NCBI GenBank assembly: GCA_021208135.1
Contig: JAJOKB010000088.1
Coordinates: 1-64,000 of the forward strand
Direction of reading: 5' to 3'
Length of the DNA stretch: 64,000 bases
From: Verrucomicrobiota bacterium
Lineage (GTDB): Bacteria > Verrucomicrobiota > Verrucomicrobiia > Opitutales > Oceanipulchritudinaceae
Part shown: one piece after another, positions 31,200 through 54,058 of the stretch
Numbering within the stretch: position 1 is the stretch's first letter
Layout: each line of letters opens with the position of its first letter
The notes under the pieces: generated by a model
Told to the model about the DNA's origin: nothing
The model's input: only the letters and a program-made list of their open reading frames with translations
Database searches by the model: none
Position numbers and translations under genes: made by a program

Positions 31200-31700
31200 A
31201 TGCCCAACACAATTCAAACTCTAAAACTCTGTTCAGTGGCCATTCTATCCGGAGTTGCTGCCTTGATATTTTCCGGGTGCCAGGCACCTGGAAATCCAAA
31301 TGCCGGACTCCCCGGCGAAGTGAACATTCAGTCATTGCCAAATGCCGGAATTGAAATCACAGGCATATTAAATGCAGATGGTTCGCTGAACTTATCGCCC
31401 CAAGTTGGCCAGCGTATGGGCCGGGGAGACTTTATCGTGGACAATATCCGGGCCGCCTACACGGACTCAGGGTTCCCGCGCGTCGAAGCATCATTGAGCA
31501 GTATTTCCAGAGGCAGGATCAGCATTCAATACCGCTTCGCTTGGTTTGACGCGAACGGTATGGAGATCGCCGCAGGTACCGGAGGATGGAACACTTTGTC
31601 TCTGGCTGCCAGGGAAACTGCCACCATACAAGGTGTTGCCCGATCCCAGGATGCCGTTCAATTCCGCATACTTGCACGCACTTTCACGCCAGGCCGTTAA
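31200..31700 (+). CDS. DUF1425 (YcfL-like) lipoprotein
   Basis: A 166-residue envelope lipoprotein with signal peptide and lipobox IFSGC near residue 27. The YcfL/DUF1425 beta-rich domain is seen in RVEASLSSISRGRISIQYRFAWFDANG. YcfL-like genes neighbour lpoB, which activates PBP1B, and a COG3014 gene. All three are in the same order here. The lipobox region itself contains the 13-bp palindrome GGTGCCAGGCACC. The exact molecular role of YcfL is not known. Confidence 0.82.
   Translation: MPNTIQTLKLCSVAILSGVAALIFSGCQAPGNPNAGLPGEVNIQSLPNAGIEITGILNADGSLNLSPQVGQRMGRGDFIVDNIRAAYTDSGFPRVEASLSSISRGRISIQYRFAWFDANGMEIAAGTGGWNTLSLAARETATIQGVARSQDAVQFRILARTFTPGR
31276..31288. repeat. Copy of GGTGCCAGGCACC palindrome inside the lipobox coding region
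   Basis: Exact 13-base match to the reverse complement of the palindrome found around the REP-transposase-like gene at 46-47 kb. Here it encodes part of SGCQAPG. It may be a REP-like insertion or chance; an exact 13-mer is unlikely in 64 kb. Confidence 0.55.
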
Positions 31701-42857: not shown

Positions 42858-45791
42858 ATGCCAAGCGATTGGTCTGACTTGCCGGATCTATCCCGCGACT
42901 CACTTGTAGATTTGGCGGGCTGGGCGGTGCTGAAGGAAGCGATGGCGCTATTCGACGCCGGTGCCGTTCTTTCAGTCTCTTGGAATAAACCCGTTTTGAG
43001 TGGCGAACTGCGGTCCAGTCCACGCCATTTGCGACCTAGACTTAACTTGCGCTCACTGGCCTTCGCGGAGAATAAATGTTCCTGCGCCAAAGGTATTCAG
43101 GGTTATGTGTGCGCTCATGCCGTTGCCTTGTGCATTGCAGCGGAACGGGCAAGACGTACCACTGAAACAGCGGATATAGCTGAGGATTCTGCCACCGCAA
43201 AGCCGCAACTCTCTCCAGATACAGATATCCAGCCAATTAGCGCAACTCCTCAATCCTTGCGCTTGGATGCCACGAATGGCAAACCTTTGCACATACGCCT
43301 GCTGCTTCCTCCTAATTTGGCATCCGCAATCACCAGAGATGTAGTAATGGTTAAATTGGAAGTGGCTGCTGACCGCGAATTGATGGCACCAGAAAAATTG
43401 TTTCGCGGCACTGCCTACAAAATACAAAAAAACCAAGCCGCAGCAGCTGCGATGATCGAAACTTGGTGCGGCGGCAAACTGTTCAGTTTACTGCAACTGC
43501 GTAGAAATCAATTGGTTCAACTCATCCATGAACTTCGCGGCCAGCCGGTCTTTGCCTGGGTCAATCAACCCGATCGCCCTCTGACCTGGCAAGGTGATTC
43601 ATTGGCTGGAATTTCAGAACTACTCGAAACACAAGAAGAGCCGTCACCGCCAATCGGCAATCCCCTCCAACCCTCACCTCAGGTCAGGCGAACATTGCCA
43701 TCCCAACCTGTTCAACGCGAATCGGCAGTAACAACTTTTTTGCGCGAGCGTGCCAGCCTTGGTGCAGGGCCCTTTCCTGCGGAGCTGGATGGCTCCAGCT
43801 TGTTCCTGTCATTACGCTTGCCTGCTAGAGATCACGACTCCTATTCCGCAATTCTGAATCTGGTTAAGGACAATGACTTCAGGCTCGAACCGGGAAATGG
43901 GCGTTGGTGGCTGCGCGATAAGCACAAGGTGCTCACTTTTCTCGCCAGGTTTTTGCGCACATTGCAAAGTGAATATCAGGTTCGCTTTACTCCAAACTTC
44001 AGTAAACGAACTGAGTCGATTACTTACCTCCCAGTCAGTATTGCAACGCATCCCGTGCATGATGGCTTTGAAGTCCAGGTTCAGCTGCAGGTCCCTGGAC
44101 TTACGGAACAGGATGTTTTCAGAGCGTTGAGTAGCCATCAGTTGTACTTGGAAAGTGGTGAACGTATCTTCTTGTTACAGTACGACCTTTTGCAACGGTT
44201 ACAATCCGCACAACAAGCTCTTAGTGGCGACCGTTCACGCGAAGTCGCACCTCGCTTCAGTTGCAAAGTAAGACCCGCTGCGTTGCGCGATGCAGAAAGG
44301 ATTTTAACTGAACTTGACCCAGAATTCCTAGCACCAGTGGATTGGCGCAAGCGCAGTACAGCCCTTCAACAGGTCAGCGCACTTCAAGCGGCACCGGTGC
44401 CAGGCACCCTCGACTCACTACTGCGAACCTACCAACGCATCGGGGTCGCTTGGCTGTGGCACCTATACCTCAACCAATTGGGCGGCGTTCTTGCGGATGA
44501 AATGGGTTTGGGTAAAACAATCCAGGCCTTAGCTCTACTCTCCTCAATTCATAATGATTCATCGGTAAAGTGCTGTAATTCAGTAGCTTTAGTCGTTTGC
44601 CCTGCAGGACTGGTGGAAAACTGGCGCAGGGAGTGCAATCGCTTTGCCCCACAATTGAAGGTGGCTATTCACCACCGCGAGCAGCGACTTGAGTCTGGAG
44701 AAATGGCAAATCACGATCTTGTCATCACCTCTTATTCAACTTTGTCCCGTGACGATGCTCTATTCGGAGTTGTCAATTGGGCAGTTATAATCGCCGACGA
44801 GGCTCAACACATTAAAAACCGCCGCACTCAAGCTGCCGCATCGCTACGCTCTCTTAAGTCATCTGCGCGATTTGTTCTAACTGGAACTCCACTCGAAAAC
44901 AGCCTGGACGATTTGCGATCCCTTTTCGATTTCATTTTACCCGGCTATCTAACACGCTGTCGCTCCAATTCACGCGATGAACGCGAATGGTTGGATCAGC
45001 GACACCTCGAACAAGCCGCACCTTACATTTTGCGCCGTTCCAAAGAATCCGTAGCACCAGAGTTGCCGCAAAAGTTAGAACAGATTGTCTACTGCCCCCT
45101 CACATCAGCACAAGAAACTCTATACCGCAAAATCCAACAACAAACTGAAGCAAATATCGCAAAACTGGAACTCGCTGGAGTCGCTGAACAAAAGGTGCGA
45201 TTCGCCGCTTTAGCCCAACTGGTTAGACTAAGGCAGGTTTGCGCTGAGCCCAGGCTGCTCCAGGAATCCCTTTTACCAGAGGATTCAGCCAAACTAAATG
45301 TGCTTTCCGAACTGCTCAACGAAGCGTTGGATGGTGGACACCGAGTACTTATCTTTTCACAATTTGTTGAGGTTTTATCACACCTACGCTTGTGGATGCA
45401 GGATCAGAAACTGGAATACGCTTATATCGATGGTTCCACCAGAAATCGTGTTGCAGAAGCAGAACGTTTTAATACAGACCCTGATATTCCAGTCTTCCTG
45501 ATCTCGCTAAAAGCAGGTGGCACCGGACTAAACCTAACCGGTGCAGATACAGTCATTCACTTTGATCCATGGTGGAATCCCGCTGCAGAAGCACAAGCAA
45601 CTGATCGCGCCCACCGCATCGGACAAAAACGGCAAGTTCAAGTCTACAAACTGATCGCGTCCAACACTATTGAGGAAAAAGTGCTACAATTACAATCCGA
45701 CAAGGCAGCCCTCTTAGAGCAACTACTCGAAGCCAGCACCAACCGAACTGCATCCGTAAGTCTAAAAGACATTAAAGACTTACTGCGCTAA
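42858..45791 (+). CDS. SWIM zinc-finger SNF2-family helicase/ATPase
   Basis: A DNA-dependent ATPase of 977 residues. The N-terminus has a SWIM finger C74-x-C76-x8-C85-x-H87. A middle region of about 400 residues is unassigned. The SNF2 core starts with DEMGLGKTIQALAL (about 550), DEAQHIKN (about 647) and LTGTPLENSLDDLRSLFDF, then helicase C with FSQFVEVL, LISLKAGGTGLNLTGAD and DRAHRIGQKRQ (about 918). Such proteins are common in bacteria and act in transcription or repair; some neighbour defence genes, but none is adjacent here. Its frame is intact. The linker before the core contains the palindrome GGTGCCAGGCACC. Confidence 0.92.
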   Translation: MPSDWSDLPDLSRDSLVDLAGWAVLKEAMALFDAGAVLSVSWNKPVLSGELRSSPRHLRPRLNLRSLAFAENKCSCAKGIQGYVCAHAVALCIAAERARRTTETADIAEDSATAKPQLSPDTDIQPISATPQSLRLDATNGKPLHIRLLLPPNLASAITRDVVMVKLEVAADRELMAPEKLFRGTAYKIQKNQAAAAAMIETWCGGKLFSLLQLRRNQLVQLIHELRGQPVFAWVNQPDRPLTWQGDSLAGISELLETQEEPSPPIGNPLQPSPQVRRTLPSQPVQRESAVTTFLRERASLGAGPFPAELDGSSLFLSLRLPARDHDSYSAILNLVKDNDFRLEPGNGRWWLRDKHKVLTFLARFLRTLQSEYQVRFTPNFSKRTESITYLPVSIATHPVHDGFEVQVQLQVPGLTEQDVFRALSSHQLYLESGERIFLLQYDLLQRLQSAQQALSGDRSREVAPRFSCKVRPAALRDAERILTELDPEFLAPVDWRKRSTALQQVSALQAAPVPGTLDSLLRTYQRIGVAWLWHLYLNQLGGVLADEMGLGKTIQALALLSSIHNDSSVKCCNSVALVVCPAGLVENWRRECNRFAPQLKVAIHHREQRLESGEMANHDLVITSYSTLSRDDALFGVVNWAVIIADEAQHIKNRRTQAAASLRSLKSSARFVLTGTPLENSLDDLRSLFDFILPGYLTRCRSNSRDEREWLDQRHLEQAAPYILRRSKESVAPELPQKLEQIVYCPLTSAQETLYRKIQQQTEANIAKLELAGVAEQKVRFAALAQLVRLRQVCAEPRLLQESLLPEDSAKLNVLSELLNEALDGGHRVLIFSQFVEVLSHLRLWMQDQKLEYAYIDGSTRNRVAEAERFNTDPDIPVFLISLKAGGTGLNLTGADTVIHFDPWWNPAAEAQATDRAHRIGQKRQVQVYKLIASNTIEEKVLQLQSDKAALLEQLLEASTNRTASVSLKDIKDLLR
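44396..44408. repeat. Copy of GGTGCCAGGCACC palindrome inside the SNF2 linker
   Basis: Exact 13-base match to the reverse complement of the 45.9/47.4-kb palindrome, coding for part of APVPGT just before the ATPase core. The site is in a linker where an insertion would be tolerated. Confidence 0.55.
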
Positions 45792-46168
45792 GTTGAAGAA
45801 TCATTCACTGACACTAGCAATCATCTCATTCACACCCAATGTGCTGTGTCCCTTGTTCACATGTTGCCAAAATGGAGGCATTACCTGGCAAAGGTTGAGG
45901 CTGTGTCCTGAATATTTTCTCCTTCGGCATTACCATTTTTCAGGTGCCTGGCACCCAAGCGCTCCCGTTGTCGCTACCTCGATGTGGACTCATTCAACTT
46001 TTGTTCTTGTCCAACTCTGCAGAGTGCGTTTGGGGGTCATTATGCTAAGCCTCTTTAATTCTCTCAGTAAGGTTGCACACGCCTTCACACCACTGCCCCA
46101 TGCCGCAGCTCACCACAGTTGTTTCAGTGGTGTGTATCGAGTTCTCCTTTGATCTTTGGCCCTACCTG
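45792..46168. other. Intergenic region between SNF2 helicase and REP-transposase-like gene
   Basis: 377 bases without a convincing gene. A 119-codon open frame (45793-46152) has no start context, is Cys/His-rich without pattern and looks non-coding. The only structure I see is the palindrome at 45943-45955. Confidence 0.6.
45943..45955. repeat. REP-like palindrome GGTGCCTGGCACC
   Basis: Perfect 6-bp arms about a central T, 214 bases from the downstream end of the REP-transposase-like gene. Two more copies lie on the other side of that gene. Confidence 0.65.
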
Positions 46169-47221
46169 CTACCCGGAACTGACCGGTCTTCTTCGCCCCT
46201 GTGACCAAGTGCCACTGAACAATACCATCGCCGCCAGCGCGGCTCGTATCATATAGCGCCCCAATAAGCGTCCGGCACGCAAAATACTTTTGGCGGTACC
46301 TATGTAGGTCGAGCACATCCGAAACGCTTTCAGTCCTTCTCGACTCATCCAGCCCAAGCGCAGTCCATACCGCGCGAACACCTCTTCCGCTGAGCGACAA
46401 ACAAACCGCACCGTGCCTTCCATGCCGCCCTCGATCCTCAACATATATACATAATCTGCCAATGTCAGTCTGCCTGGCCCGGTAAAACCACACACACTGT
46501 AACACTGCTCTAATGGACACAACATCGCCTTCATCTTGCCCGCATGTTCCCGCTCGTGTTCCGGCAAACTTTCCAGCTCCACCAGCCGATAATAGATACT
46601 GCTGTGGCGACAACGCTCCAGTTTGTTCGCAGCTCCTTCGCGAATCTGTTCAAGATCGATGTACTTAAGTGTCGCAAGCAATCCTTCTGCGCTAACGCAC
46701 ACCACCGACTTGAAACGACTCCTCCACAATGTGCCTTCCGTTTTGTCCAGCTTGTTCATCATCTTGCTGATCGATTCATCCAAATACTGCATGAACACAC
46801 TGATGCTCTTCAGGTTCGCACGCCAGTTTTCCACCTCAAGCTCATCCTCAAGAAAGTCCTCTATCCATTGCTCGCGCTGCTGCACTGTCATTCGGCCGCG
46901 CTTCTCGCTCTTGCAATCCAGATTGGCCACAAGCTCCGCTAGCCGACGATCGCTCAGCCCGTCTATTCGGGATGGATCAAAGTGCAGACACATACGATAA
47001 CTGTCCTTCTGAAAATTAAAGGACAATACATCCGCTTGCCACGTCGTAACCAACTTATATACAAGCTCTTCCAAGAAAATCTTCTTTTCAGCAGACAATT
47101 CCTGGTCCGCTTTGGCTCCCCCAAATTTAAACCAACGGCGCACCGCACGGTTGCTGACGTGCACCGTCAATGGCTTATTCACTGCAAATATGCTTTTTCG
47201 CGCTATTCTCACCAACAACAA
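46169..47221 (-). CDS. REP-associated (Y1/IS200-type) transposase-like protein lacking the HUH motif
   Basis: A 350-residue protein with clear landmarks of the large Y1/RAYT-type transposase family: HVSNRAVRRWFKFGG (21-35, the xxSRCVRRxFLxG block), GTLWRSRFKS (163-172, the GRFWExRFKS block) and LATLKYIDLEQIR (182-194, the MxYVDLNPIR block). Where active members have HYH, the metal site, this one reads DSYR (73-76), so the HUH histidines are missing. It may be inactive or domesticated. No ATG fits the start; TTG 47221 or GTG 47215 are the best candidates. It is flanked by palindromes at 45943, 47328 and 47366, as REP elements flank RAYT genes. The frame is intact over 350 codons, which argues for retained function or recent arrival. 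Confidence 0.7.
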   Translation of the reverse strand: MLLVRIARKSIFAVNKPLTVHVSNRAVRRWFKFGGAKADQELSAEKKIFLEELVYKLVTTWQADVLSFNFQKDSYRMCLHFDPSRIDGLSDRRLAELVANLDCKSEKRGRMTVQQREQWIEDFLEDELEVENWRANLKSISVFMQYLDESISKMMNKLDKTEGTLWRSRFKSVVCVSAEGLLATLKYIDLEQIREGAANKLERCRHSSIYYRLVELESLPEHEREHAGKMKAMLCPLEQCYSVCGFTGPGRLTLADYVYMLRIEGGMEGTVRFVCRSAEEVFARYGLRLGWMSREGLKAFRMCSTYIGTAKSILRAGRLLGRYMIRAALAAMVLFSGTWSQGRRRPVSSG

Positions 47222-47233
47222 GCTTTATTATGA

Positions 47234-47253
47234 TTAGCTTATTGGCAAGCTAA
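47234..47253. repeat. Inverted repeat TTAGCTT-ATTGGC-AAGCTAA
   Basis: Seven-base arms around a six-base loop, 13 bases upstream of the transposase-like start. It could be an operator, an element end or a transcript hairpin; no T run follows on either strand. Confidence 0.4.
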
Positions 47254-47327
47254 AATATCGACAATATGCTATTCCCCAAGAGTACTGCGACTGCATGATG
47301 AATTCCGGGGTCAACCAGCGGCAGAAT

Positions 47328-47340
47328 AGTGCCTGGCACC
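47328..47340. repeat. REP-like palindrome, AGTGCCTGGCACC variant
   Basis: The 11-bp core GTGCCTGGCAC is intact but the outer arm pair is lost. It lies 107 bases upstream of the transposase-like start and 25 bases before the next copy, in the same orientation of the central T. Confidence 0.6.
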
Positions 47341-47365
47341 ACCATCAGAAAGGTAGCCCAGTCAT

Positions 47366-47380
47366 GGGTGCCTGGCACCC
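47366..47380. repeat. REP-like palindrome GGGTGCCTGGCACCC
   Basis: The longest copy, with perfect 7-bp arms around central T. Together with 47328-47340 it forms a closely spaced pair, as in REP doublets. Confidence 0.65.
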
Positions 47381-49522: not shown

Positions 49523-50831
49523 CCTGTTTTTATGGATTGTTGTGTTGGTCTTTTTGTTCTGCTGAATATGTCCGCGGAAAGATAGACATTCAATCATTTC
49601 CCTTTACCGGAACCATCGAACCGATGATTTCAAATACCGGTCCTGTACGATTTACATTGGACCCACATTGGTTGCAACAGGCGGGAGATGGGCAAAAAAA
49701 ACTGCGCTTAGTGGACAGCCAGTTTAATGAGATTCCTTTTGCTGTGGTGCTAGCCTCTGACTCCATCGAAGTTCCAGAATGGGTTTCGCTGCAGGTTTCC
49801 AGCTTCGATTACGGTGAAGGCGAACAAACTATGATTTTGGAGAATAATCACCCGGAGACACCTGTAGCTTCAATTCGTTTTCAGACCCACTCCCGCGATT
49901 TCCACAGAGCTGCAGAAGTATGGACATCAAACGACAAAGAGAACTGGCATTGGCAAACCAGTGGATACATCGTCGATGCTAGTTCACAAATCAACTTTCG
50001 CCAGTTGGAAATAGCCTTGCAGCCCGTCCGTGCTCGCTGGATTCGAATTCGACTTACTGATACCGGATCGAACAGGCGGGCCCATGCGAGTCTAACAATA
50101 CAAACCTTGCAAGAAGTCATCGTGCAGTTACCCACTGAAGCTGCACTAAGTATTCGTCAAATACAGGCCAAACTATTGCTAGAAAAACCTGTAAGCAAAT
50201 CATTTGGGTCATTGCGGCTATTTCCCGCTGCCTCAACAGAGGATTCAAATACGATACTACCGCTGAATGACCTCAGATTGCCGATAGATAGAATTTCATT
50301 TGAAGTGGACCAATCGGTTTTTCACGTCATTTCATCCTACAGGAAATGACAACTCACGGCACACGAATTCTATGGCAGGATCAATTAGTACGCACCCTTG
50401 ATGGCTCAAACGCAAACCTAACATTCGCAATGGGAATTCCGTACATGACAAACGGTAAGGTTGTTATAAAAAACGAGGGGAATCCACCGCTTACCATTTC
50501 GGGGATACAAATTGAATGGTTTCAAAGAGAGTTTGTTTTTATTGCAGAGCCGGGAAACCGCTACACGTTGCTCGCAGGAAACTTTGCCGTGCCATCTGTG
50601 AACTACGATCTCGCTCACATATTAAAGCTCAATCACGAACGGATCAACAGCATGCCTAGAGTGCAACCACCTTTAATGATCGCCAACCCGGAGTACTTAG
50701 AAGACAAACATACCTATCTTCAATGGCTACGACACAATACGGTCATGATCCTTGTGATAATCATCGCATTCGGATTGTTACTATGGATGCGCATCATTCT
50801 GCGATCGACCCCAGATCAAAGCTCCTCTTGA
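49509..50831 (+). CDS. DUF3999 family protein, two frame breaks
   Basis: A type-I envelope protein of about 440 residues. ATG 49509 overlaps the DUF2339 stop by 14 bases and opens a signal peptide (NLFLWIVVLVF). The frame shifts at five T, 49551-49555 (four expected), and again near 50330-50345. The beta-rich extracytoplasmic part includes ARWIRIRLTDTGSNRRAH, and the C-terminal membrane helix is MILVIIIAFGLLLWMRII. DUF3999 with a C-terminal anchor after DUF2339 is a conserved pair; the function is unknown. A split into two genes with an ATGA overlap at 50346 is possible but less likely, since DUF3999 is normally about 450 residues. Confidence 0.72.
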
Positions 50832-50857: not shown

Positions 50858-53800
50858 TCAAGGGAAGTCTGGAAAGGATCCCCACTGATCCTGAGCAATA
50901 TTGTAAAAATCGCCAGCGCTGCTTTCGGGAACCCAGATCCAACCGTGATCAATCAAGTTCATCACTTGACCGCCCATACCCCAAGAAGGATAGGAGAGAC
51001 ACCAACCCCAATGGGGAAGATAGATCCAGGGGTAGTCGGCGTGAAAAACCCACCCGAAAACTGAAGAGAACGCGAGATCTGGAGACAGCGTCACGACCTC
51101 ACCAGGAAGATCATTAACAGAAGGAGGAATGGCCTCGAAAAGAGCGGTAAAGTTAAGGTTATCGGTAACGACGCCAACAAGAGGATTACTCACGTTGTTT
51201 TCTAATTCTTGCCAGCCAACAAATCGGTATCCCGGAAGGGGGATTGCAGATAAGGAAAATTCGTCGCCATCGGCATATTCACCCGCCCCATCAACCCAAC
51301 CATATAATTCATTACTTGAGGTCGCGGATAGCTGCCAAGCCCCCATGGAGACACGTCCAGCAAATGTACCGGGTTGGGCAATAGCTCGCTGTTTTTCTGT
51401 ACTGCCCCATGATCAGCAAGGTATGATCCGAATAGGCAAATTGCCCGCCAAAGACAGGTCTCACTTGCTGGTAAGGAACGAATTCAAGCTCTGCATTGAA
51501 TCGCTGGTCCAATTCCAGATTAGTCGAAAACAACCTGAACAAACCGGGGAAGTTCTCAGAATTAGATGTCTTGAAAGTACCCAAGACATAAAGAAAATTA
51601 CCGTGGTGCAAAATATGATGAACCGCTGGCGATTCTGATGCAGATAATTGAACTGGCACACGGATTTGATCGAGCCCCGATTGAGTCGGATTGAGTTGCA
51701 CCAAAGAGATTGCCTCCACCGAGCGCGATGAGACCGATACCTCATCAAAATCTCCTCCAACCAACAAAGACCCATCTTCAAGCACCACAACTGAATGGAC
51801 CCTAGCCTGTGACGAAAACACTTTGATCGTGGAGGGGAAGGGGAACGCTGGCATCATGGTGTATTCAACCGGCTTCTTGCTAGTGAAGGTAACTGGAGCA
51901 AACGTGGGATCTAGGCTACCGTCCATAAACAGCCTTTGCAGCACTGGATTCCCCCCATTGATCGGGAATGGTCAGCAATAGTCTGTTTTGATTATCAATG
52001 TGCCAGAGTCCAACATTTTCACTGGACGCAAGCGATAACTCATTCGTGCCGGATGCCGTTTGCCAATTGTAAATATCGCCCAGATAGGCACCGTCGCGAC
52101 CATAAAATATCACCCTGAACATCAGGTATTTATTGTCTTCGAAATAGGGGGAACCGTGATTGGCATTTGTCAATAGTACCGCAATTGAATCACTTCCGAC
52201 AGGGCGCATACCATAGACCCTCGGTGGCATTGAATCCAAGTATGTTAGCAGTGATATACTATCGAAACCGACACTAACTAACGCCAGGGATGAGCCTGAT
52301 TGCCTCACTAACGCAATAACCTCACCATCTGGCAATTGTACGGCATTGATTAAGCCGGCGGCATTGCCTTCCAAATGAGAAGGGAAGAAAGGTGCGAGTG
52401 AGAATTGCGGGTCATCAAAGGAGAGTCTAGCGGCATTATAGGAACCTTCGTCACCCACAAAATCGACGCGATGTCGTTCGGTGGGGTCAGCACCGCCCCC
52501 GCCAACACCCCACAACATGACGTGTCCCGAGGTGGTGCGAACAGCGCGGTTAGGAAAAGTGAGAGCAAATGGTTGGGGGGTAAAAAAAGTTTTCTTCCAC
52601 CACTCCCAAATGAATTAATCCGAAAAAACTCCATGGGAAACCACCCCCTGCAAAACTGCCCCTGAATCCATACTGCCTGACAATAAGTAGCCATCTACCA
52701 AGGTTCGATACCAAATAAGTTATCGATCATTGTACCCCACAACTCGCTAGGTAACGGGTTGGGCATTACTTGCGAAAATGAGGGATCTAGTTGACCATCG
52801 GGTAACAAGCGGATTCCTCCCATTGTACCAACCGCAATGATGCGGTCATTGGCATCAATAATAAGGTCATTGATGCCCATGCTACCGCTAATGGATGTGG
52901 GTGCATTGAAAGTTGAATCCACACTGCCATCAGCATGGAGTCTTAAGATCCCGGGTCCCAGAATATTCGGGTTTGTTGAACTTGTAAACCTGGCTGCCAC
53001 CAGAATTCTGCCTTCAGAATCAAGACCAAGACCTCGGATGGCCCGGTTTGCAGCAATGGGCAACGCCGCATGGAATGTTGAATCTACATTACCGTTGGGC
53101 AATAGCCGGGCAATGGAGTCGATGGCAACTTCATTGACGGAAGAAAAAGACCCGCCAATCAAAATACTCCCTGACGCATCCTCCAAAACTCTGGCCCAGA
53201 CATTGGTTTCAGGCTGCGATTGTTTATAGCCTAAGGCTACGGGGTTCCAGGTATTGTCTATTTGCCCATCTGCGTTCAGCCGATAAACGTAAGCTCCTCC
53301 TGCTGTTGGTCCATCCGCAGTATCCCTTGATGCGATGATGATTTGACCATTGGACAGAATTCGCCCCACGCGTGGAGAACGAACTGAAAACGGCTGAAAA
53401 TCTGGATCAAAAGTCCCATCAACAAATACTTTGCGCACAAACGCATCGTAGCCGTAATCGGTTACAACCAGAGCGGATCCATCATCAAAGACATCTAGCA
53501 ACATTACCGATGAAGCACCAGAGGCAAATGAGAACCCTGATACTGGTTGGCCAGAACTGAGGTCCAGTCTGATCAAGGCTCCAGACAACTGGTTGCTGAC
53601 ACCAGAAACGATAGATAAACCGGACGCCCACAGACCACCTTGTCCATCGGGAATTGCCCGATAAAAATACGTCGGGCGCTGTGGGAAATTATTTGCTATA
53701 CTGGACAAAACTGTGCCAGGGATCCCCAATGACAACTGATCCGATGGGTGAGGGCCATTTTGTACATTAGCAGTACCAAGAGTGCCATAACCTGAGGCAA

Positions 53801-53885
53801 GAAGCGTAATAAATGTAAACGCAACAGCACAAGTAACTGATTTTATTATTTTTAACCTAGGGAATATCATCGCGCGGAAGTCCAT
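50858..53885 (-). CDS. Secreted delta-60-repeat propeller protein with InlB-like repeat, several frame breaks
   Basis: Four segments in changing frames appear to form one secreted protein of about 1,000 residues. Its N-terminal signal peptide is near 53885-53790 (TFITLLASGYG). Delta-60/DUF5122-type repeats recur, with endings such as LHADGSVDSTFNAP, LLPDGQLDPSF and FMDGSLDPTFAP. A region resembling an InlB B-repeat follows (GWVDGAGEYADGDEFSLSA, GYRFVGWQE). It ends in a Trp/Tyr-rich C-terminal domain (FGWVFHADYPWIYLPHWGWC), a type I recall from secreted Opitutae proteins. Breaks are clear at six C 51951-51956 (five expected) and near 51395-51408. Several occur within 52519-52694, where the exact path is uncertain. 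It converges with DUF3999. Confidence 0.6.
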
Positions 53886-54058
53886 CGCGGAATTTATGTA
53901 AATGCAACCTTTAAACCATAATGAAGAAAATAAACCCATATTTGACGGTCATTTAGGACAACACCTATCGAATATTGGTATCGGTGCGCCATACACTGGC
54001 TTCGACCTGGTTAAAGCTTAAAGGAATGAGACGAGCCTGGTCGTTGTTGCCAGAACAC

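Follow-up and report, generated by a model that had tools for sequence, protein, structure and literature searches.

The window, as the whole stretch of 64,000 nucleotides analysed is called here, contains on its minus strand an open reading frame (46169-47221) that codes for a TnpA_Y1 (REP-transposase-like) protein. The original prediction had placed a REP-transposase relative at this location, and two homologs in the organism's own genome (assembly G000) support the assignment: L002 (35% identity, E 5.7e-44) and L003 (30% identity, E 8.9e-24). A further relative in the genome, L004 (G000:C106:11754-13727), is a remnant: its N-terminal part is missing and the neighbouring gene codes for an ISL3 transposase (Pfam DDE_Tnp_ISL3, E 2e-66), so that an ISL3 insertion may have interrupted it. 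The protein is termed the SYR protein, after the residues at its HUH site. Translation likely starts at the GTG at 47212, as the family N-terminus M-x-IARK is thereby restored (M-R-IARK in the SYR protein); an alternative start, TTG at 47221, would give 350 codons.

What kind of TnpA_Y1 protein is this? Its scores are under the cut-offs of the Pfam Y1_Tnp model (14.9 of 23 bits) and the NCBIfam REP_Tyr_transpos model (16.6 of 80 bits), but scores are also low in HUH-intact relatives, and Quentin 2018 likewise reported low scores for class 2 against PF01797 (PMC6006769). The protein appears best placed in TnpA_Y1 subclass 2.3 of that study because of its length (347 aa), an insert that separates HUH from the W motif, a HUH-Tyr distance of 111, a long C-terminal tail and gammaproteobacterial relatives. 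Homology to the subclass is confirmed over the core by alignments and by a tree with 41 relatives.

The gene lies between short palindromes (Table 1). The palindrome GTGCCTGGCAC is found on both sides. The limits of the REPtron-like element are taken from the outermost palindromes, the second copy supporting the left limit only. As an exact 13-mer, GGTGCCTGGCACC occurs 35 times in the genome and its reversed control not at all; the gene is thus flanked, as in a REPtron, by palindromes dispersed across the genome. There are 44 such 13-mers in G006, a genome of the same family, and 0-2 in the other genomes sampled from the order and phylum. The GT[AG]G foot of canonical REPs has no conserved counterpart in the 35 aligned GGTGCCTGGCACC contexts, which yield only the consensus RGGTGCCTGGCACCY. 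When folded as DNA, the palindromes form an ordinary hairpin, unexceptional against shuffled sequences, and a literature search returned nothing relevant that describes GTGCCTGGCAC as a bacterial repeat. Within the window GGTGCCTGGCACC is also present at 44396-44408 and 31276-31288; the former lies in frame within an SNF2-type helicase open reading frame, where it reads APVPGTL and leaves the frame unbroken.

The window had been described as full of frame breaks. This appears to hold for two stretches, 49537-50831 and 50858-53939, but 27 non-overlapping open reading frames of at least 300 aa are intact. In the first stretch a DUF3999-like gene that follows a DUF2339 gene is split over two open reading frames at 50346-50349; the second, on the minus strand, is a chain of overlapping open reading frames in different frames. 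Both are likely pseudogenes or assembly errors.

Table 1. Coordinates of the SYR gene, its motifs and the surrounding element in the window
Feature	Position	Strand	Basis or remark
Gene, SYR-type TnpA_Y1 protein	46169..47212	-	347 aa from GTG at 47212; codon usage
Ser-Tyr-Arg codons AGT TAT CGT, HUH site	46994..47002	-	alignments
Y motif, Tyr187...Glu191 (YIDLE, family YxDLN)	46649..46663	-	alignment; motif definition PMC6006769
REPtron-like element, 1437 bp, SYR gene between GGTGCCTGGCACC palindromes	45943..47379	.	palindromes on both sides
Palindrome GGTGCCTGGCACC, 3' of SYR gene, border of duplicated DNA	45943..45955	+	
Palindrome GTGCCTGGCAC, inner of tandem pair 5' of SYR gene (11-bp core only)	47329..47339	+	
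Palindrome GGTGCCTGGCACC, outer of tandem pair 5' of SYR gene	47367..47379	+	
Segment duplicated at G000:C49:1-304	45943..46246	.	99% identical

The metal site and the predicted fold

In class 2 proteins the Y---NP motif provides the catalytic Tyr and, four residues later, the Asn that serves as third metal ligand, represented by N119 in E. coli TnpA_REP (PMC6006769). In place of the HUH pair (His-hydrophobic-His), the SYR protein has Ser-Tyr-Arg at residues 74-76 as numbered from the TTG at 47221 (71-73 from the GTG at 47212). The S and R are exactly in register with the two His of L002 (NHMH), L003 (NHYH) and about 45 relatives, and the replacement of HUH by SYR originally predicted is thereby borne out. 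Might the two His be found at a shifted position? No shifted pair was seen in the alignments with own-genome paralogs and with near and far relatives; these put the S and R on the two His, and the possibility is rejected. The H of CLHFD aligns outside the motif and is also present in several HUH-intact relatives. A frameshift artefact at SYR is likewise rejected, as conserved residues on either side share one frame. Among about 50 aligned members, only the SYR protein has both His replaced (S74, R76).

The change extends beyond what had been predicted. The catalytic Tyr is retained (Tyr187), but the Asn-Pro of Y---NP is Glu-Gln, and the third metal ligand is changed from Asn to Glu at residue 191, a position at which each of the 47 other relatives and every own-genome paralog has Asn. 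Other motif positions that are altered are N73, V193, A195 and the P of Y---NP (192). As read from the sequence, the whole metal site is lost (H74S, H76R, N191E). A catalytic Tyr at the position of LNE-x-IARRAN was considered and rejected, since the catalytic Tyr is placed in Y---NP (PMC6006769).

The losses are confined to the motifs. Among the 21 family-conserved columns kept by both L002 and L003, those broken in the SYR protein are N73, H74, H76, N191, V193 and A195, i.e. six of the nine columns in catalytic motifs vs none of the 12 elsewhere. The Fisher exact p for this comparison, calculated by hand from the alignment table of conserved columns, is ~0.0015 and is descriptive, as the motif set was chosen post hoc. 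Metal is essential for the attack by Tyr in the HUH superfamily (PMC8266576), and with three ligands lost, Tyr attack on DNA should be abolished and with it cleavage by the SYR protein. That an Arg76-Glu191 salt bridge stands in place of the metal is only a thought. A damaged HUH is also found in L066 (G004:C153), which reads YVH for HVH with a single His lost, in a genome (G004) full of intact copies.

An AlphaFold model of the SYR protein, built from 42 family sequences, has a mean pLDDT of 79.7; its core is modelled confidently and its tail poorly. Among PDB structures, the top match to the model is 4er8, TnpA_REP bound to its hairpin (probability 1.00), and the next matches are mostly IS200/IS605 transposases; the E-values, from 0.02 upwards, are weak. 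The fold is thus predicted to be kept.

Probable retention of the gene and probable duplication of the element

Is the gene maintained, as first proposed, or is it a relic? In the tree the SYR protein joins L002 and L003 with support of 100/99, and from this node its end branch measures 1.73 changes per column vs 0.52 for L002 and 1.07 for L003, values that are rough because the branches are long. Family-conserved columns are broken at 14 of 35 positions in the SYR protein, vs 11 of 32 in L003 and 8 of 35 in L002, and no other protein of the set has as long an end branch or as many broken columns as the SYR protein. Codon scores are host-like and even across the whole gene, and the best frame is that of the open reading frame itself, as in the paralogs. 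Neutral drift was simulated under an assumed indel rate: 6% of frames remained open after 30 substitutions and 0.4% after 60. As few frames survive drift and the end branch is long, free drift would represent at most a small part of the branch. An old pseudogene is unlikely, because codon usage is host-like and the frame has stayed open over a long, fast branch. Together with the kept fold positions, these features give the appearance of a maintained gene, and they argue for retention under a changed constraint, short of proof. No close SYR relative was detected in the genome contigs, 373 genomes of the order, 384 of the class, viral contigs or phages. On contig C49 the second copy includes 75 coding bases, which do not differ from the SYR gene and are too few for dN/dS.

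The same pattern could be obtained if the gene is very recently dead. The SYR protein would then be an inactivated transposase, a functionless passenger of a palindrome-bounded element that an intact enzyme mobilizes, and its frame would still be open merely because too little time has elapsed. The long end branch and the broken columns favour this somewhat unlikely scenario, and L066 provides one other copy with a damaged HUH. Of 924 Y1 sequences, Quentin 2018 retained the 722 that have a complete core with both motifs, and regarded the others as probably non-functional (PMC6006769). There is also an intact, expanding L003-type family that could act in trans. Stop-free neutral drift, however, is limited to ~20-30 amino-acid changes, far below the excess of the SYR protein over L002. 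Where conserved columns have changed, they lie within the catalytic motifs and are not scattered, and codon usage is even along the gene, all of which speak against a dying transposase.

The L003 type itself (L003 at G000:C104:2-700, and L104-L113) has its upstream end and first codons at ~15 places that are 91-99% identical. The copies have a sharp border ~133 nt before the ATG that consists of tandem CTTTCYGGACAGTCCC palindromes, and most end at contig ends; the pattern resembles that of an IS-like family with many copies and recent spread. Elsewhere in the taxonomic family, G002, G004, G009 and G013 each have more than 30 copies of HUH-intact relatives, and other genomes of that family have none. 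Expansion of the HUH-intact transposase group is thus very uneven across the family genomes.

Has the element moved? The original prediction called the protein non-transposing, but contig C49 carries the 3' part of the element, if not more, a second time, with the palindrome as its border. The homology begins exactly at the boundary palindrome and the flanks beyond are unrelated; 304 bp and one border are visible. The two segments differ by one substitution and two 1-base indels, all outside the open reading frame, and from the last difference to the end of the contig there are exactly 127 identical bases, which would fit an assembler overlap (k=127) that merged two real copies. A copy that starts at a palindrome suggests that the element was duplicated, whether its own protein did this or another one acting in trans. 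The term non-transposing then fits the chemistry of the SYR protein and not the element. Alternatively, the match on C49 reflects strain variation or an artefact of assembly and says nothing of movement. The assembly is fragmented and has 4.2% contamination, and a single border of the copy can be seen. Such an explanation is improbable, as the homology stops exactly at the palindrome, the three differences signify two real sequences, the 127 bases are accounted for by an overlap of two copies and C49 bears other palindromes of the same family. At two sites, L035 (G000:C49 near 59,490) and C49 305-340, another hairpin, ACCCAT...ATGGGT, which is imperfect, stands ahead of the palindrome; its inner bases vary from one site to the other in a manner that may preserve the pairing.

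Could the SYR protein be half of an enzyme? In a mixed dimer, Tyr187 and Glu191 would come from the SYR protein and the two His from a HUH-intact paralog of the L002/L003 type, and the SYR protein would aid or brake transposition. The active site of IS608 is built in trans, with Tyr and Gln131 from one subunit and the HUH from the other (PMC5934647). The SYR protein keeps exactly the Tyr half, Glu could plausibly bind metal at the place of the Gln or Asn, the genome has two sisters with an intact HUH and the element appears to be duplicated. Against this, the palindrome that brackets L002 and L003 is another one, GGACAGTCC, the possible partners share no more than 30-35% identity with the SYR protein and dimerization in subclass 2.3 is putative; a mixed dimer is thus quite improbable. 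Equally doubtful is a split transposase of two paralogs, in which the SYR protein is an obligate partner or brake of its HUH-intact sisters and also serves the dispersed GGTGCCTGGCACC palindromes. Least probable is a SYR protein that alone still cleaves, with a different metal arrangement or no metal, and mobilizes both its element and the dispersed palindromes: the palindrome-bordered second copy, the 35 palindromes and the lack of another palindrome-bracketed transposase of this type in the assembled 74.5% of the genome are in its favour, but three ligands are lost together, the superfamily depends on metal for the Tyr attack (PMC8266576) and a quarter of the genome is outside the assembly.

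A putative hairpin-binding protein and its relation to known systems

The reading preferred here, tentatively, is that the SYR protein is a retained, non-cleaving, hairpin-binding derivative of a subclass 2.3 TnpA_Y1, and that its element was moved in trans or at an earlier time. The protein would have come from the same branch as the intact L002 and L003 transposases, and have lost its metal site while keeping the predicted fold and Tyr187. Most likely it binds single-stranded GGTGCCTGGCACC, or competes for such hairpins, without cutting. A non-cleaving protein in a copied element requires either an intact transposase that acts in trans or a copying event at a time when the metal site was still present, and the duplication may have come about in either way. 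The absence of cleavage, the hairpin binding and the mobilization of the unit in trans are what one may infer from these features. Binding is favoured by the kept conserved columns and the palindrome brackets, and is a reasonable guess from the sequence. Retention of Tyr187 counts against a pure binder, which does not need the Tyr, but the residue may be structural.

Which enzyme might have acted in trans? L020 (G006:C92), with HYH and Asn intact, is the single family gene found in G006 and has two GTGCCTGGCAC palindromes on each side; it is a clean candidate for the palindrome's own transposase. As L020 and the SYR protein are in different sub-branches, the palindrome may be that of a different enzyme, with the SYR gene as a passenger. 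A mobilizer of the L020 type was not found in the assembled part of the organism's own genome and could be located in the missing part. Among the other family members examined, none has comparable repeated palindromes, and four have isolated pairs that resemble chance occurrences.

REP-associated transposases are thought to be domesticated enzymes. A maintained metal-free member between its palindromes would separate hairpin binding from cutting, and such a separation would make it testable how REPs spread and what the host gains. Loss of core motifs is already known from the Y1 sequences set aside in the 2018 study; what appears unusual is a complete loss, confined to the motifs, in an otherwise maintained, palindrome-bracketed gene.

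The SYR protein resembles the RAYT/TnpA_REP of E. coli in its predicted fold class, in the position of its gene between palindromes and in the Tyr motif. Unlike it, the E. coli protein has about half the length and an intact HUH, and its REPs have a GTAG foot (PMC6006769, PMC8266576). With L020 the SYR gene shares the bracketing palindrome, whereas L020 has kept the HUH and Asn and is on another sub-branch of the tree. L002 and L003 are closer, as sisters with a similar architecture of repeated short palindromes; they differ in their intact HUH and Asn (HMH and HYH, respectively) and in the palindrome that accompanies them, GGACAGTCC vs GGTGCCTGGCACC in the SYR element. The SYR protein is similar to subclass 2.3 in its length, near 325-350 aa, the HUH-W insert and the long tail, in a HUH-Tyr distance next to the reported median of 110 and in a Y motif near YVDLNP (PMC6006769), and its best named relatives are proteins of the Pseudoalteromonas, Shewanella and Vibrio type. 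It departs from the subclass in having SYR for HUH and Glu for the Asn ligand, and in its flanking palindromes, as Quentin 2018 found no such flanks for subclass 2.3 (PMC6006769). With the SYR gene and L020 bracketed by palindromes and L002 and L003 accompanied by GGACAGTCC, it appears that subclass 2.3 genes of this lineage can sit in REPtron-like units. Thus a subclass reported to be without REP-like flanks would be shown able to occur in palindrome-bracketed units.
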